In this document: positions 1 through 5,021 of the stretch, in pieces
Layout of the letters: each line of letters starts with the position of its first letter
Position numbering within the stretch: position 1 is the first letter of the stretch
Virus record (IMG/VR): IMGVR_UViG_3300025309_000020
Coordinates: 1-47,002 of that record
Source: a virus
Direction: 5' to 3' (one strand)
Length of the DNA: 47,002 nt
Program-made: the position numbers and the translations under genes
The notes under the pieces: model-generated
The model's input: the letters and a program-made list of their open reading frames with translations, nothing else
Told to the model about the DNA's origin: nothing
The model's database searches: none

Positions 1-40
1 CCGCGAATCGACCCTCGCCTCACCCCGCCTGACAGGACCC

Positions 41-94
41 TTGACGTGAACGTCAATGTGCCACAGAGTGACGCGCCACGTTGTGACACGCCAC
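41..94. repeat. Dyad and iteron-like direct repeats at the left edge
   Basis: A 7-bp inverted repeat with a 2-nt centre (TTGACGT-GA-ACGTCAA) lies at 41-56. It is followed by two 12-bp direct repeats differing at one base, GTGACGCGCCAC (68-79) and GTGACACGCCAC (83-94), with period 15, and a partial copy GTGCCAC at 58-64. The block lies just downstream of the leftward gene ending at 119, and I see no gene in it. It could be an operator or replication-protein binding array, or the 3' part of a repeat-encoding gene cut by the window edge. Confidence 0.5.
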
Positions 95-118
95 ACGGTA
101 GACCACCACACCGTGCCA

Positions 119-736
119 TCATCGAGCCGACCTCAACGCATCCTCGAACTGCCGTTTGAATACCGGCTGAACCAATCGATCCACCTCTCTATGTGTTGCC
201 TGGCCGAATGGTAGTAGCGGTGTGTATGTGGCCCTTGGTGTGTATGCAACCAGCAGGCGCAGTTGGCCCGGATCTCCCTTGCCCCTGCCCTTGAGCCGCT
301 GCCATATACCGGCAGGGCCGGACATACCGCCGCCTGGTTTGCCGCTAAATACGTTTGGTTTCGACAGGGCTGTCTTGATCGCGCCCTTGGTCATATTGCC
401 CCATGTGTTGGTGCCTATTGCGCGCGGTAATACGATTGCCCTCTTCTTTGGCCCTTCCACGCCCCCCCGCACTTGCCACTTGAGATACTCGGCTTGTATT
501 GGCCTGGCTCGCACTGATGCAATGAGCCTGCCTTTGTTGGCCCGCACCACCTCATAGGCCATGCGGGTGAATGGGGTAGGCCGATCCAGGTGTTTGTCCA
601 GGGCCACGGTCTCAGCTGTTTGCCCTGCCAGTGCGAGCGTATTGAGCGTGTTCGCCGCCGCATATTGGAGCTGTTTGCCGGCAATGTTATCCAGGTACTC
701 CCGGCACCGCTTGCTATCGATTGTTGCTGTTATCAT
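119..736 (-). CDS. Z-like minor tail / virion protein
   Basis: This 205-residue basic protein resembles the phage virion proteins grouped around lambda minor tail protein Z. That is family recognition by eye, not a search. Supporting segments are RPTPFT at residues 52-57 and YLKWQVRGG at 84-92, followed by a Gly/Lys-rich middle and a short basic C-terminus. The start has a good ribosome-binding site (GGAGCGAGACA before ATG). Its position is odd: relatives normally sit between head-tail joining and tail tube genes, but here it lies behind a small XRE gene at the far end of the window from the other neck genes. If the genome is circular or continues to the left, this may be the end of another structural cluster. 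A generic structural protein is the safe reading. Confidence 0.55.
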   Translation of the reverse strand: MITATIDSKRCREYLDNIAGKQLQYAAANTLNTLALAGQTAETVALDKHLDRPTPFTRMAYEVVRANKGRLIASVRARPIQAEYLKWQVRGGVEGPKKRAIVLPRAIGTNTWGNMTKGAIKTALSKPNVFSGKPGGGMSGPAGIWQRLKGRGKGDPGQLRLLVAYTPRATYTPLLPFGQATHREVDRLVQPVFKRQFEDALRSAR

Positions 737-804
737 TGTCTCGCTCCATTAACTGTATTTGTCAGGCTTTTGTAATCCCTTGGTACTACAACGCCGAGTC
801 TCAC

Positions 805-993
805 TCACTCCCGCGCCCCACCTAACAACCGCAACCAAGCCACAGCCAGCCCCGGCACCCTGCGAGCGTTGCCGCCCCCATGCTCCCAATTTTGCCAGGT
901 GCGGAGCGGTGTACCGCTCTGCCGTGCCGCCTCGATCTGTGACAATCCCACCTGTTTGCGCAGTTTTATAAATTCCGATTTTGTAATCTGCAT
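805..993 (-). CDS. Small XRE-family helix-turn-helix regulator
   Basis: A 62-residue, single-domain DNA-binding protein. A Cro/CI-type helix-turn-helix fills residues ~8-37 (VGLSQIEAARQSGTPLRTW is the typical Q-x3-A-x3-G core). A short basic C-terminus follows and there is no oligomerisation domain, so it is Cro-like in size. It is transcribed leftward from a promoter at 1018-1046, back to back with the rightward promoter at 1064-1092. A 17-bp dyad in that rightward promoter (1069-1085) is a plausible operator for it. The Z-like gene starts 68 nt downstream on the same strand. The fold is clear; its role as the lysis/lysogeny switch repressor is inference. Confidence 0.8.
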   Translation of the reverse strand: MQITKSEFIKLRKQVGLSQIEAARQSGTPLRTWQNWEHGGGNARRVPGLAVAWLRLLGGARE

Positions 994-1017
994 TTCGATA
1001 TTGTAACTCAGAAAGAA

Positions 1018-1046
1018 ATTATACTCAATCGGTATTTATTTTTAAA
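1018..1046 (-). promoter_or_regulatory. Sigma70-type promoter for the XRE gene
   Basis: On the minus strand, TTTAAA (1041-1046) and a perfect TATAAT (1018-1023) are separated by 17 bp, with the XRE start codon at 993. The -35 matches consensus at 4 of 6 positions. Confidence 0.55.
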
Positions 1047-1063
1047 ATAGTGCTCTTTTGCCC

Positions 1064-1092
1064 TTGCAATCGTGATAATCATGATGTACTAT
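1064..1092 (+). promoter_or_regulatory. Rightward promoter with a 17-bp dyad operator
   Basis: TTGCAA (1064-1069), a 17-bp spacer and TACTAT (1087-1092) form a reasonable sigma70 promoter driving the 1242-2240 unit. The spacer is almost exactly an imperfect dyad, ATCGTGAT-A-ATCATGAT (1069-1085, 7 of 8 arm positions complementary). A repressor bound there would block the promoter. The adjacent XRE protein is the obvious candidate. Confidence 0.5.
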
Positions 1093-1170
1093 ATAATTAA
1101 CAGAGAGAGAAAAACACTCAGAGCGAGACTGAGGGACAGGGCGAGGCTAATCGAGACCCCGGATGATACA

Positions 1171-1222
1171 GAGTGTCTGCGATATGCGATCAAGCTGACG
1201 AGTCCAAGCGGACGAAACACTC
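1171..1222 (+). ncRNA. Type III hammerhead ribozyme in the 5' leader
   Basis: All conserved hammerhead core positions can be read in order. Stem III 5' strand is GAGTGT (1171-1176) with the cleavage base C at 1177, giving a GUC triplet. The CUGANGA core is CTGACGA (1195-1201). Stem II is GTCC/GGAC (1202-1205/1210-1213) closed by an AAGC loop. The GAAA motif is at 1214-1217. Stem III closes with ACACTC (1217-1222), a perfect 6-bp match. Self-cleavage is predicted between 1177 and 1178, 64 nt upstream of the start codon at 1242. Stem I (1178-1194) is weak: a U.G closing pair, a 2x2 mismatch, then GAU/AUC. It could be a tertiary-contact internal loop or a sign of decay. Hammerheads are known from phages and prophages. 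Activity is inferred, not shown. Confidence 0.8.
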
Positions 1223-1241
1223 AAAATTAAAGGAGATTACC

Positions 1242-1455
1242 ATGAAAACTTACAATTACGCATCAAAGAGACATCGACGCCGACAACACCGCCTCTTTTT
1301 ACATCGACAACAATGGCGATATTTTTGACACCAAAGCTGAGGCTGAGCTTGAGGATATTACGGTATGTGTCGCCGAGGTAATTGTTGACGGTTTTTATCC
1401 TGGCAGCCTGGAAGAGTGGCGGCAAGTAGTTTTGGATAAATACGAGTCTCGATAG
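1242..1455 (+). pseudogene. Small acidic ORF interrupted by a +1 frame change
   Basis: A strong ribosome-binding site (AAAGGAGATTACC) precedes ATG at 1242, but that frame stops after 28 codons. From about 1270 a different frame encodes a coherent acidic protein tail, from DIDADNTASFYIDNNGDIF onward, ending KYESR at 1455. Dropping one A from the AAA at 1265-1267 joins the two into a ~70-residue protein. It could be a real disruption, a sequencing error in a short A run, or a programmed +1 shift. This is the first reading frame behind the hammerhead. I do not recognise the family. Confidence 0.5.
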
Positions 1456-1490
1456 CCAATTCAAGCCCGGAGCAATCCGGGCATAAGGAG
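1442..1490 (+). repeat. Intergenic hairpin plus ribosome-binding cassette, copy 1
   Basis: It shares ACGAGTC, then CCAATTCAAGCCCGG, a complementary CCGGGC arm and CATAAGGA with the copy at 1701-1747. GCCCGG/CCGGGC form a 6-bp hairpin immediately upstream of the Shine-Dalgarno of the 1498 gene. It overlaps the last codons of the preceding reading frame. Confidence 0.7.
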
Positions 1491-1497
1491 AAATGAT

Positions 1498-1674
1498 ATG
1501 AAAAAATATTACGAAAACCACCAATCACCTAGGGGTATGCAGCTGTTGACCCCTCGGATTGATAGTTCTGGGCGGTTATCGTGGTATTTGTCCCTGCCGG
1601 GACAGCCCGAAAAAAGACGTAGAGTTTCGGCGGTTGTCGCGAGGAAAATGATCGCCGACAAGCACTGGTTTTAA
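1498..1674 (+). CDS. Small basic phage protein, 58 residues
   Basis: ATG at 1498 follows AAGGAGAAATGAT, itself the end of the hairpin cassette. The 58-residue product is basic and aromatic-rich (starts MKKYYENHQSPRG, ends RKMIADKHWF). The middle has alternating Ser/Trp/Tyr/Leu residues, as in a small beta hairpin. I recognise no family. It sits in the short rightward unit behind the hammerhead, so a regulatory or host-modulating role is possible but unsupported. Confidence 0.6.
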   Translation: MKKYYENHQSPRGMQLLTPRIDSSGRLSWYLSLPGQPEKRRRVSAVVARKMIADKHWF

Positions 1675-1700
1675 CCCGGCAGTTTTTAATGAGTGGCGAC

Positions 1701-1747
1701 ACGAGTCCAAATAACCAATTCAAGCCCGGTCCGCCGGGCATAAGGAA
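1701..1747 (+). repeat. Intergenic hairpin plus ribosome-binding cassette, copy 2
   Basis: Second copy of the 1442-1490 cassette: ACGAGTC, CCAATTCAAGCCCGG, a 4-nt loop instead of 6, CCGGGC, CATAAGGA, then ATG at 1753. The loops differ (AGCAAT versus TCCG). ACGAGTCCAA is also found inside the hammerhead (1198-1207). Confidence 0.7.
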
Positions 1748-1752
1748 AAGCT

Positions 1753-1935
1753 ATGAACCGATTAACACATGCAACAGTTTGTAAAAATTGCAAAAACAGA
1801 CGTTCACCCCGGAAAAGCGAGGCCATGTATTTAAGCCCTGGCCAATCAGTTTGCGACGTTGCCGGATCAGCTGTGAGTGACCACTGGCAGTGCGCATGGC
1901 CGGAATCTTTTGCATTTATGGTGGTGATAAAATGA
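1753..1935 (+). CDS. Small cysteine-containing protein, 60 residues
   Basis: The gene starts at ATG 1753 behind AAGGAAAAGCT. The product has CKNCKN at residues 10-15 and two more Cys near 34 and 47, a spacing that could bind one zinc ion. Its stop overlaps the next start (ATGA at 1932-1935), so the two genes are translationally coupled. The next gene also begins with a zinc ribbon. Family not recognised. Confidence 0.6.
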   Translation: MNRLTHATVCKNCKNRRSPRKSEAMYLSPGQSVCDVAGSAVSDHWQCAWPESFAFMVVIK

Positions 1936-2240
1936 GCAACTGTGCAGCCTGCGGCAAGTCCGCAACCGATAAAATAGGAGCCGCCCACCTCTGCCGGCAT
2001 TGCGCGGATTACGTGCATGAGGAAATTGTAATAGCGCGGGATGCTGGCAGAGTCGCCGTCGCCTCGGGGATTGCCAGGCGCATGTATCGCGAACATTTTA
2101 GGACCGGCACAATCCACCTCCGCGACGTTCCCGGCGACCTGCGGGACAGGCTCAAATCCATGTCGCACGCCACCGACAGACCAGAGCGGGAACTCATCAT
2201 TGCCGCGATGGACGCGTTTTTATGGTCATCGGCTGAGTGA
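1932..2240 (+). CDS. Zinc-ribbon plus ribbon-helix-helix DNA-binding protein
   Basis: A 102-residue two-part protein. Residues 1-25 form a zinc ribbon (CAACGK then CRHCADY). Residues ~58-100 have the Arc/CopG ribbon-helix-helix layout: a short strand TIHLRDVP, then two helices ending IIAAMDAFLWSSAE. I chose ATG 1932 because it overlaps the upstream stop and yields the zinc ribbon intact. RHH proteins usually bind operators as dimers and autoregulate; here the targets could be the promoter dyad at 1069-1085 or elsewhere. It ends the rightward unit, 57 nt before a terminator. The RHH call is by pattern. Confidence 0.7.
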   Translation: MSNCAACGKSATDKIGAAHLCRHCADYVHEEIVIARDAGRVAVASGIARRMYREHFRTGTIHLRDVPGDLRDRLKSMSHATDRPERELIIAAMDAFLWSSAE

Positions 2241-2355
2241 TCGCCCCGCCTATTTTCATGGGTTCGCCGACACAGACGAGCCCCGCCTTCCTTTTCCGCC
2301 GCACAGTTTTTGCCAGCTGTGCGGCGTTTTGCTCAGTGATTAGGTGGATTTTCAT
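2197..2355 (-). CDS. Small basic protein at the end of the early operon
   Basis: ATG 2355 overlaps the stop of the membrane peptide gene (ATGA), giving a 52-residue basic product (starts MKIHLITEQNAAQLAK). The coding frame looks natural, but it runs through the rightward terminator hairpin and overlaps 44 bp of the convergent RHH gene. It is therefore either a true convergent overlap or a fortuitous frame. No family recognised. Confidence 0.45.
   Translation of the reverse strand: MKIHLITEQNAAQLAKTVRRKRKAGLVCVGEPMKIGGAITQPMTIKTRPSRQ
2297..2330 (+). terminator. Rho-independent terminator of the rightward small-gene unit
   Basis: A perfect 10-bp stem CGCCGCACAG/CTGTGCGGCG (2297-2306/2317-2326) with a 10-nt loop is followed by TTTT (2327-2330). 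It lies 57 nt downstream of the RHH stop codon, between convergent genes. Confidence 0.8.
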
Positions 2356-2447
2356 ATCGCGCCGATCAACCACAATCCTACCCCAACACCAACCACAAAT
2401 ACCCACAGTGCCACAACGCATAGTGTATCAAAAATCACCTCTTTCAT
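2352..2447 (-). CDS. 31-residue single-pass membrane peptide
   Basis: ATG 2447 overlaps the stop of the PhaZ-like gene (ATGA) and follows GCGGAGGAATGGAT. The product is MKEVIFDTL then an unbroken hydrophobic helix of about 20 residues to the C-terminus. It is thus a single transmembrane segment with almost no soluble part. Its own stop overlaps the start of the 2355 gene. Coupling suggests co-expression with the hydrolase; it might anchor, export or release something, but this is speculation. Confidence 0.6.
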   Translation of the reverse strand: MKEVIFDTLCVVALWVFVVGVGVGLWLIGAI

Positions 2448-3430
2448 ATCCATTCCTCCGCAACTTCAGGAACTTGCACATATTTTTCGTGCAAGAACAT
2501 TTCCGCGAATTCATCCAGTTCCGCGGCCCCAGTGAATGCCCGAGTATGCCCCGCCTCCGGAAAAATCACCCCGTGTTTTTCGACCGACCCCACTTTTTTA
2601 AGCAGGTCGAGAGCCTGTTTTGTGCTGGTGATATCGTCTTTTCCGCCAGCGAAAACATAGACCGGGCAGGTGATATTTCCGAGATCCGCAACCTGCCCGC
2701 CGATATTCCAGGTCCCGTCATACAGCCGGTTTTTGGCAAAATGATTTTCTAAAACATCGAGAAACCACACCCCGGCCAGGTCGTTGGGGTCGTCATACCA
2801 TCCCTCATTCACCCCCCATTTTTCGATACCGGCCGGCCGATCATTGACCACATGCCCGAGTAGGTCGAGGTACCGACCGTAAAATACCTGCATTGGAGCC
2901 ATCGAGGCAAATGCCAGCCATTGAGCGAGCCCCGGCTGAATGCCGCTATTGAGGTCTACGAGCATTTTGTGTGCTGGCAGGCTGATTGTCTCGCAATACG
3001 ATTCAATCGCATTTTTTTGGCCGGTTTTTAGATTAATTGGGGCAACAAACGCCGCCAGCTTGCGGACCCGCTTAGGGTAAAACGAGATGAACAGTGCCGC
3101 CAGCCAGCCGCCTTGACAGCAACCGATGAGGTCGATTTTGTCGGTCGAGCAGCAATTTGTAATGATATCTGCTGATTGTCTCAAGACGCTGATCAATCCG
3201 GCGACATCAAGGTTTTTGGTGGCCTGGGTTGCGTTTTTCAGCTCGTACCACCACACTGGCCTGCCTGTTTTCTCACATTTTTTAATCAGAGGGAGGACCA
3301 CCCGGCCTTTTCTTCCGGCAAAGGGCGGAATGATGAAAATCGGCACCCCCGAGCCACCCTTGAGAGATCGATACAGGCTGTAATACTCATCGTAATACAC
3401 TTCCTCTGCTCCTGGGTATTGATCAATCAT
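2444..3430 (-). CDS. PHA depolymerase/synthase-like alpha/beta hydrolase
   Basis: This 328-residue hydrolase has the cysteine lipase box of the PhaC/PhaZ superfamily. GCCQGG at residues 103-108 makes Cys105 the nucleophile. The remaining triad is likely Asp265/266 (in AGGKDDITS) and His295 (in PEAGHTRAF). The segment around 227-242 (ENHFAKNRLYDGTW) and the DDI..T..Q pattern recall intracellular PHB depolymerases (PhaZ) more than class III synthases; this is from memory. No signal peptide is visible and the length (328) is below typical ~400. It is co-translated with a Cys-rich protein upstream (8-bp overlap) and a membrane peptide downstream. Known family function is cleaving or making storage polyester. 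Mobilising host PHB granules during infection would fit, but another ester substrate is possible. Confidence 0.75.
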   Translation of the reverse strand: MIDQYPGAEEVYYDEYYSLYRSLKGGSGVPIFIIPPFAGRKGRVVLPLIKKCEKTGRPVWWYELKNATQATKNLDVAGLISVLRQSADIITNCCSTDKIDLIGCCQGGWLAALFISFYPKRVRKLAAFVAPINLKTGQKNAIESYCETISLPAHKMLVDLNSGIQPGLAQWLAFASMAPMQVFYGRYLDLLGHVVNDRPAGIEKWGVNEGWYDDPNDLAGVWFLDVLENHFAKNRLYDGTWNIGGQVADLGNITCPVYVFAGGKDDITSTKQALDLLKKVGSVEKHGVIFPEAGHTRAFTGAAELDEFAEMFLHEKYVQVPEVAEEWI

Positions 3431-3638
3431 TTTTGCCCCCGTTGTAGTTTTTTAACTGCCGGTTTTCGCACTTGCCATCAATCGCCTGCGGCAAAAAACG
3501 CTCCGGATATGCCCCGGCGAGATGGTGCGTGAGTCTCAATTTTACCGCTGGATGAGGATTGCGGCAGGTGCAATAGTTGCCATGCAAAATCTCGTGTGTT
3601 TCGCAATAAATACATTTTCCGGTCCTATCGATTTTCAT
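3423..3638 (-). CDS. Small Cys/His-rich protein, 71 residues
   Basis: It starts at ATG 3638 after a near-perfect AGGAGGGTATCG. CIYC and CTCRN in the first 27 residues give four Cys that could bind zinc, followed by a basic tail (HPAVKLRLTHHL). It overlaps the PhaZ-like start by 8 bp, so the two are translationally coupled. Family not recognised. Confidence 0.65.
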   Translation of the reverse strand: MKIDRTGKCIYCETHEILHGNYCTCRNPHPAVKLRLTHHLAGAYPERFLPQAIDGKCENRQLKNYNGGKND

Positions 3639-4820: not shown

Positions 4821-4847
4821 GTTTTCCGGAGCCAACCGGCTCCGGCC

Positions 4848-5021
4848 TCATTGAAGCTGATTGTTCTGAATTGCCTCTTTTAGCCGCACCAGAAAAAACC
4901 GCACATGCCGCTCGTCTGTCGGGATCTCCACACCTAGGGCCGCAGCAACGAGGTTAATGTGGGATATCGCTTCTTCGTGGCTGATCAGGTCTTGGAGCGC
5001 GGTTTGTGGTTCGAGTGGCAT
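4848..5021 (-). CDS. Small helical protein, 57 residues
   Basis: ATG 5021 follows AAAGGATAACAC. The protein (MPLEPQTALQDLISHEEAI..., ending RLKEAIQNNQLQ) is largely helical and acidic at the N-terminus. The gene lies 10 nt after the 5032 stop. Family unknown. Confidence 0.6.
   Translation of the reverse strand: MPLEPQTALQDLISHEEAISHINLVAAALGVEIPTDERHVRFFLVRLKEAIQNNQLQ

Follow-up and report, generated by a model that had tools for sequence, protein, structure and literature searches.

Does the short plus-strand element at positions 1171 to 1222 of an uncultured phage genome represent a hammerhead ribozyme and, if so, does its location point to control of a lysogeny switch or to the ordinary processing of an mRNA? 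We addressed these questions in the window, by which we mean the whole stretch of DNA analysed, an IMG/VR record of 47,002 bases that comprises a nearly whole tailed-phage genome. Most genes of this phage are directed leftward, terminase and DnaB among them, and the element belongs to a small rightward unit.

A type III hammerhead motif with a mismatched stem I

The original prediction of a hammerhead rested on a GUC triplet, the core segments CTGACGA and GAAA, a perfect 4-bp stem II with a 4-nt loop and a 6-bp stem III, and every one of these parts was found in place (Table 1). The NUH triplet of type III hammerheads is present as GUC at 1175–1177, with U1176 paired to A1217, and the CUGANGA and GAAA segments stand in the order and spacing of the hammerhead core at 1195–1201 and 1214–1217. 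Stem II is a hairpin of four Watson–Crick pairs with an AAGC loop. Stem III comprises six pairs (GAGUGU/ACACUC, including A15.1–U16.1) and is open, carrying the 5' and 3' ends of the motif. The irregularity ascribed to stem I was also borne out: a U1178·G1194 pair is followed by two mismatches, G1179×A1193 and C1180×A1192, and then by three pairs (GAU/AUC) that close the 5-nt loop AUGCG. From U1178 to 1241, the interval between the predicted cut and the first ATG amounts to 64 nt, the leader length that had been claimed. A reading of the element as a type I hammerhead was rejected, since no downstream strand closes stem III and a perfect upstream strand is present.

Table 1. Features of the motif, its leader and the neighbouring genes in the window
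Feature	Position	Strand	Basis or remark
Divergent helix-turn-helix ORF, 62 aa, possible repressor	805–993	−	PHROG 7950/2328, Pfam HTH_3
TATAAT, possible −10 box of rightward transcript	1092–1097	+	Sequence
Upstream copy of stem III 3' strand, AAACACTCA	1112–1120	+	9-nt direct repeat
Stem III 5' strand, GAGUGU	1171–1176	+	Sequence and alignment to RF00008 and R1
C17 (C1177), predicted cut 3' of this base (C1177/U1178)	GUC triplet 1175–1177	+	Core alignment to RF00008 and R1
Stem I, 17 nt, irregular	1178–1194	+	RF00008 and R1 alignments
Core CUGACGA	1195–1201	+	Sequence, RF00008, R1
Stem II, GUCC-AAGC-GGAC	1202–1213	+	Sequence, RF00008, R1
Core GAAA	1214–1217	+	A1217 is A15.1, paired with U1176; sequence, RF00008
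Stem III 3' strand, ACACUC	1217–1222	+	Sequence, RF00008, R1
SD-like AGGAGA	1230–1235	+	Sequence; between hammerhead and ATG 1242
Gene 1 region, ATG 1242	1242–1455	+	Sequence
Gene 2, 58 aa	1498–1674	+	
Gene 3, 60 aa	1753–1935	+	
Gene 4, 102 aa (MSNCAACG...)	1932–2240	+	Relatives in L126 and L127

A search with the Rfam type III covariance model had been proposed as a check on the motif. When the local 301 nt were compared with all 4227 Rfam families, this model, RF00008 (Hammerhead_3), gave the top local match, aligning end to end over 1170–1223 with a score of 29.4 bits (E 1.6e-4; E 0.025 for the whole window against all families). The score lies below the RF00008 gathering score of 48.5 bits, which is the curators' search cut-off and not a biological criterion, and a default Rfam scan at that cut-off consequently makes no RF00008 call at the candidate. 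The hammerhead of another phage contig, L126, has complete stems and likewise falls under the gathering score (23.4 bits). In comparison with RF00008, the candidate has the same core, GUC triplet, stem II with a tetraloop and open stem III, but differs in the two stem I mismatches beside the core.

To place the candidate among viral relatives, hammerheads were gathered from IMG/VR by their stem II pattern, giving at least 120 stretches; among the matches listed, 37 type III cases in which stems I, II and III are all present were kept and aligned. In these comparators (among the matches listed) 97.3% of stem cells are paired, a percentage raised by their having been chosen for possessing stems; what is informative is the large number of double changes. 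We counted 182 cells changed on both sides across the three stems, a number reached in none of 500 shuffles, and covariation is thus strong in all three stems of the 37 comparators. In other members of the stem II pattern set, including L009, L031 and L103, CTGANGA...GAAA motifs start right after a TAA triplet (TAACTGATGA). These triplets may be stop codons, and their position suggests hammerheads of another type, set right behind genes.

A covariance model (R1) built from the 37 viral type III hammerheads, with the candidate left out, returned a single match in the window, at 1171–1222 on the plus strand (33.4 bits, E 1.9e-7). On 189 kb of other loci it again gave a single match, the L126 hammerhead, itself a member of the model. 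A motif descriptor requiring the core, at least 4 bp in stem II and at least 6 bp in stem III occurs once in the window and was not encountered in 50 Mb of simulated first-order Markov sequence of the same composition. With a looser descriptor (stem III of at least 4 bp), 0.0075 occurrences are expected per window, counting both strands. These results support the identification of 1171–1222 as a real type III hammerhead motif in an mRNA leader, with a mismatched stem I.

Position of the motif in its transcript and the question of a switch

The TATAAT at 1092–1097 would imply a possible transcript start near 1104. No full σ70 promoter was scored on the plus strand at the leader, where the TATAAT was the only promoter element seen; on the minus strand there is a good promoter match at 1018–1046. 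The 62-aa ORF at 805–993 on that strand lies back to back with the hammerhead leader, and matches PHROG 7950/2328 at E about 5e-4 and Pfam HTH_3 below its cut-off. Hence the divergent arrangement originally proposed holds in outline, with a helix-turn-helix ORF and a minus-strand promoter, but its rightward promoter was not borne out by the scoring. The four-gene unit envisaged behind the hammerhead is present as a short rightward series of four small ORFs spanning 1242–2240.

The first ATG (1242) begins 19 nt downstream of the hammerhead, on the sense strand. It opens 28 codons only, and the coding-looking frame at 1246–1455 (about 70 aa) is offset from it by one base; a fault in the assembly, a genuine frameshift or a different start codon could each account for this. 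This frame found no relative when used as bait in viral and genome collections. Ahead of genes 2 and 3, at 1442–1492 and 1701–1749 on the plus strand, we noted a repeated leader element (ACGAGTC...CCAATTCAAGCCCGG(loop)CCGGGCATAAGGA) that folds into a hairpin of 6 bp directly ahead of the ribosome-binding site. It matched no Rfam family and no copy was found in IMG/VR, and we did not retain it as a further ribozyme.

In order to judge whether the position of the hammerhead is unusual, we looked on the same strand, up to 60 nt past each hammerhead, for an ATG followed by at least 40 open codons. Such an ATG lies 0–54 nt downstream of 29 of the 37 viral type III hammerheads (among the matches listed), and the median distance from hammerhead to ATG in these cases is 21 nt. 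By comparison, 18% of random positions are followed by such an ATG, as are 3 of the 37 hammerheads when the opposite strand is read; the binomial p is about 2e-15, with the reservation that some contigs supply two or three hammerheads. The 5'-leader position is therefore the usual one for viral type III hammerheads. Since hammerheads precede ordinary phage ORFs by about 21 nt, the position of the candidate needs no switch-specific explanation.

With regard to a temperate lifestyle, the phage has a helix-turn-helix ORF with a weak match to known families, and neither a tyrosine nor a serine integrase was found in the window. A whole-window Rfam scan with all families gave no match to a ligand domain. 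The suggestion that the ribozyme exerts post-transcriptional control over a lysogeny switch is not supported, given the lack of an integrase in the window, the weak repressor match, the lack of any sign of a ligand domain and the usual placement.

Stem I, leader folding and the likelihood of cleavage

Stem I is the weak point of the candidate. Among the matches listed, stem I of the 37 comparators is 98.6% paired, a figure inflated by the choice of comparators with at least four stem I pairs; few other candidates are as irregular in this stem, L121 being the nearest case. Because of this weakness, we grade self-cleavage at the predicted site after C1177 as likely and no higher, and the imperfect stem suggests that cleavage would be slower than in typical relatives. 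An alternative stem I register (UGC/GCG) was discarded, since six bases ahead of the core would then be unpaired. With its six layers and 5-nt loop, stem I would hold loop I as far from the core as in the comparators L023 and L092, which also have a 17-nt stem I. Judging from this equal loop distance, a contact between loops I and II may be geometrically possible, and by inspection AUGCG and AAGC would allow at most 2 bp.

Folding predictions give stem III a probability of about 0.97 when the motif is taken alone, of 0.1–0.4 in longer leader RNA and of 0.1–0.3 in the full leader, and the stability of the leader is not unusual (z 0.47). The 9-nt sequence AAACACTCA occurs exactly at both 1112–1120 and 1215–1223, so that ACACTC at 1114–1119 could pair with 1171–1176 in competition with stem III. 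We set this alternative pairing aside on account of its low predicted probability of only 0.01–0.02.

The explanation that we favour, and consider probable, is a type III hammerhead in the 5' leader of a small rightward unit that serves ordinary mRNA processing, with cleavage as the predicted outcome. Once transcribed, stems II and III would place the core segments CUGACGA and GAAA against the GUC triplet, leading to co-transcriptional self-cleavage after C1177. The cut would detach the leader segment nearest the promoter, and the remaining mRNA would start at U1178, with a 5'-hydroxyl and a structured leader of 64 nt before the first ATG. Its likeliest role would be routine 5'-end processing, giving a uniform, structured 5'-OH end. 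A 5'-OH end lacks the 5'-monophosphate that is sensed by RNase E and related pathways. For this reason decay that depends on a 5'-monophosphate would start less readily from it, and the cut may stabilise the mRNA. Alternatively, the cut may serve to detach gene 1 from RNA that reads through from upstream.

It is conceivable, though rather unlikely, that the element derives from an active leader ribozyme which has lost stem I pairing by the core and now cuts, if at all, too slowly to matter. The two mismatches lie beside the core, where the 37 comparators are nearly fully paired, and the adjoining gene 1 frame is offset too, as if the stretch were eroding. However, every core base and all of stems II and III are intact, and neutral decay would be expected to strike these; moreover, G×A and C×A oppositions can stack in a helix, which would leave loop I six layers off the core as in L023 and L092. 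Simple chance resemblance, without ribozyme ancestry, might account for a score under the Rfam gathering cut-off and for the failure to find a homologue of the element, but it is hardly credible in view of the empty 50 Mb simulation, the R1 E-value of 1.9e-7, the correct strand and the typical distance to a start codon.

The drop in stem III probability on passing from the isolated motif to the leader, together with the exact repeat of AAACACTCA and the divergent helix-turn-helix gene, would fit a ribozyme with a weak stem I whose cutting is conditional. The upstream ACACTC (1114–1119), another leader segment or a phage protein would compete for stem III, or stabilise stem I, and thereby tune the early control unit. 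If true, condition-dependent cutting would amount to post-transcriptional control of the regulatory region. We regard this as improbable: the specific alternative pairing is predicted at only 0.01–0.02, a 6-nt complement in a 140-nt leader is not rare (about 0.03 by a simple count), and neither an integrase nor a ligand-domain match was found.

Known hammerheads, related phages and a solitary CRISPR repeat

Perreault et al. (2011, PMC3088659) described prophage hammerheads that border single genes or short blocks of genes, and proposed that they process long phage transcripts into gene-length mRNAs. Intergenic examples are found in PaP3 and Bcep176, tandem sets occur in A. tumefaciens, A. caulinodans and C. 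scindens, and the three tandem hammerhead sets tested cleaved in vitro (PMC3088659). The candidate is likewise intergenic and adjoins small phage genes; it differs in being a single copy that heads a unit by a divergent regulator in an uncultured phage, and in being predicted from sequence. The known group of phage hammerheads thus gains a further member. According to the positional rule that emerged from our survey, viral type III hammerheads mostly lie in the sense orientation about 20 nt before a start codon. This rule refines the published description (PMC3088659) to a modest extent, and it allows the 2011 proposal that ribozymes process phage mRNAs to be tested through the mapping of 5'-hydroxyl mRNA ends just upstream of phage genes. 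The copy with a mismatched stem I offers a useful test of how far a helix may erode before cutting stops.

We sought relatives of the phage through its minor-tail gene, DnaB and terminase, and found no orthologous hammerhead element among them. None of 10 terminase-relative records has an RF00008 match, and none of 5 such records matches window positions 1–2450; several of these records are short fragments. An exact search of IMG/VR with the 28-nt 3' half of the motif also gave no match. Homologues of gene 4, 39–40% identical, are encoded by contig L126, from a distant IMG/VR phage, and by contig L127. The L126 hammerhead (3423–3477) lies 16 nt upstream of an SD-preceded ATG and, like the candidate, occupies a leader in a small-gene cluster with a gene 4 homologue, but has a full six-pair stem I, a five-pair stem II and a CUC triplet. 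L126 also carries twister-P5 and twister-sister ribozyme motifs between small genes, and L127 a twister-P5 motif; no twister or twister-sister motif was found in the window. Judging from the motifs in these gene 4-sharing phages, self-cleaving RNAs recur in leaders within small-gene units of this sort. L126 (about 2762–2815) and L127 (about 2770–2830) also have in common a conserved motif between genes, GTCGGCGTAARAATCGTGCGGGGGCGAAAGCCCYGCCCTAAGAAGGG; it matches no Rfam family at E≤1 and is possibly another structured leader or ribozyme.

A contig 99.95% identical to the window (L160) overlaps its right end and extends 205 nt past it, and its first 13 nt are reverse-complementary to bases 1–13 of the window. 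A second contig (L161, 58% terminase identity) has a comparable motif at its start, which is what a cos end would predict. The genome has a cos-type end and a total length of about 47.2 kb.

Finally, a solitary CRISPR-repeat-like element, GTTTTCCGGAGCCAACCGGCTCCGGCCTCATTGAAGC, is located at 4821–4857 on the plus strand, where it matches Rfam CRISPR-DR16 at 41.2 bits, above the cut-off; no second full copy was found in the window. It resembles the solitary repeat units of PMC10651486, and is possibly more interesting than the hammerhead. Arrays made of its repeat core occur in Desulfobacteraceae and in other genomes, and several such arrays adjoin a Cas4–Cas1 fusion of the Cas1g type, that is, type I-G. 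We describe the element as a type I-G-like CRISPR repeat, a candidate RNA anti-CRISPR and a candidate hint to the host.
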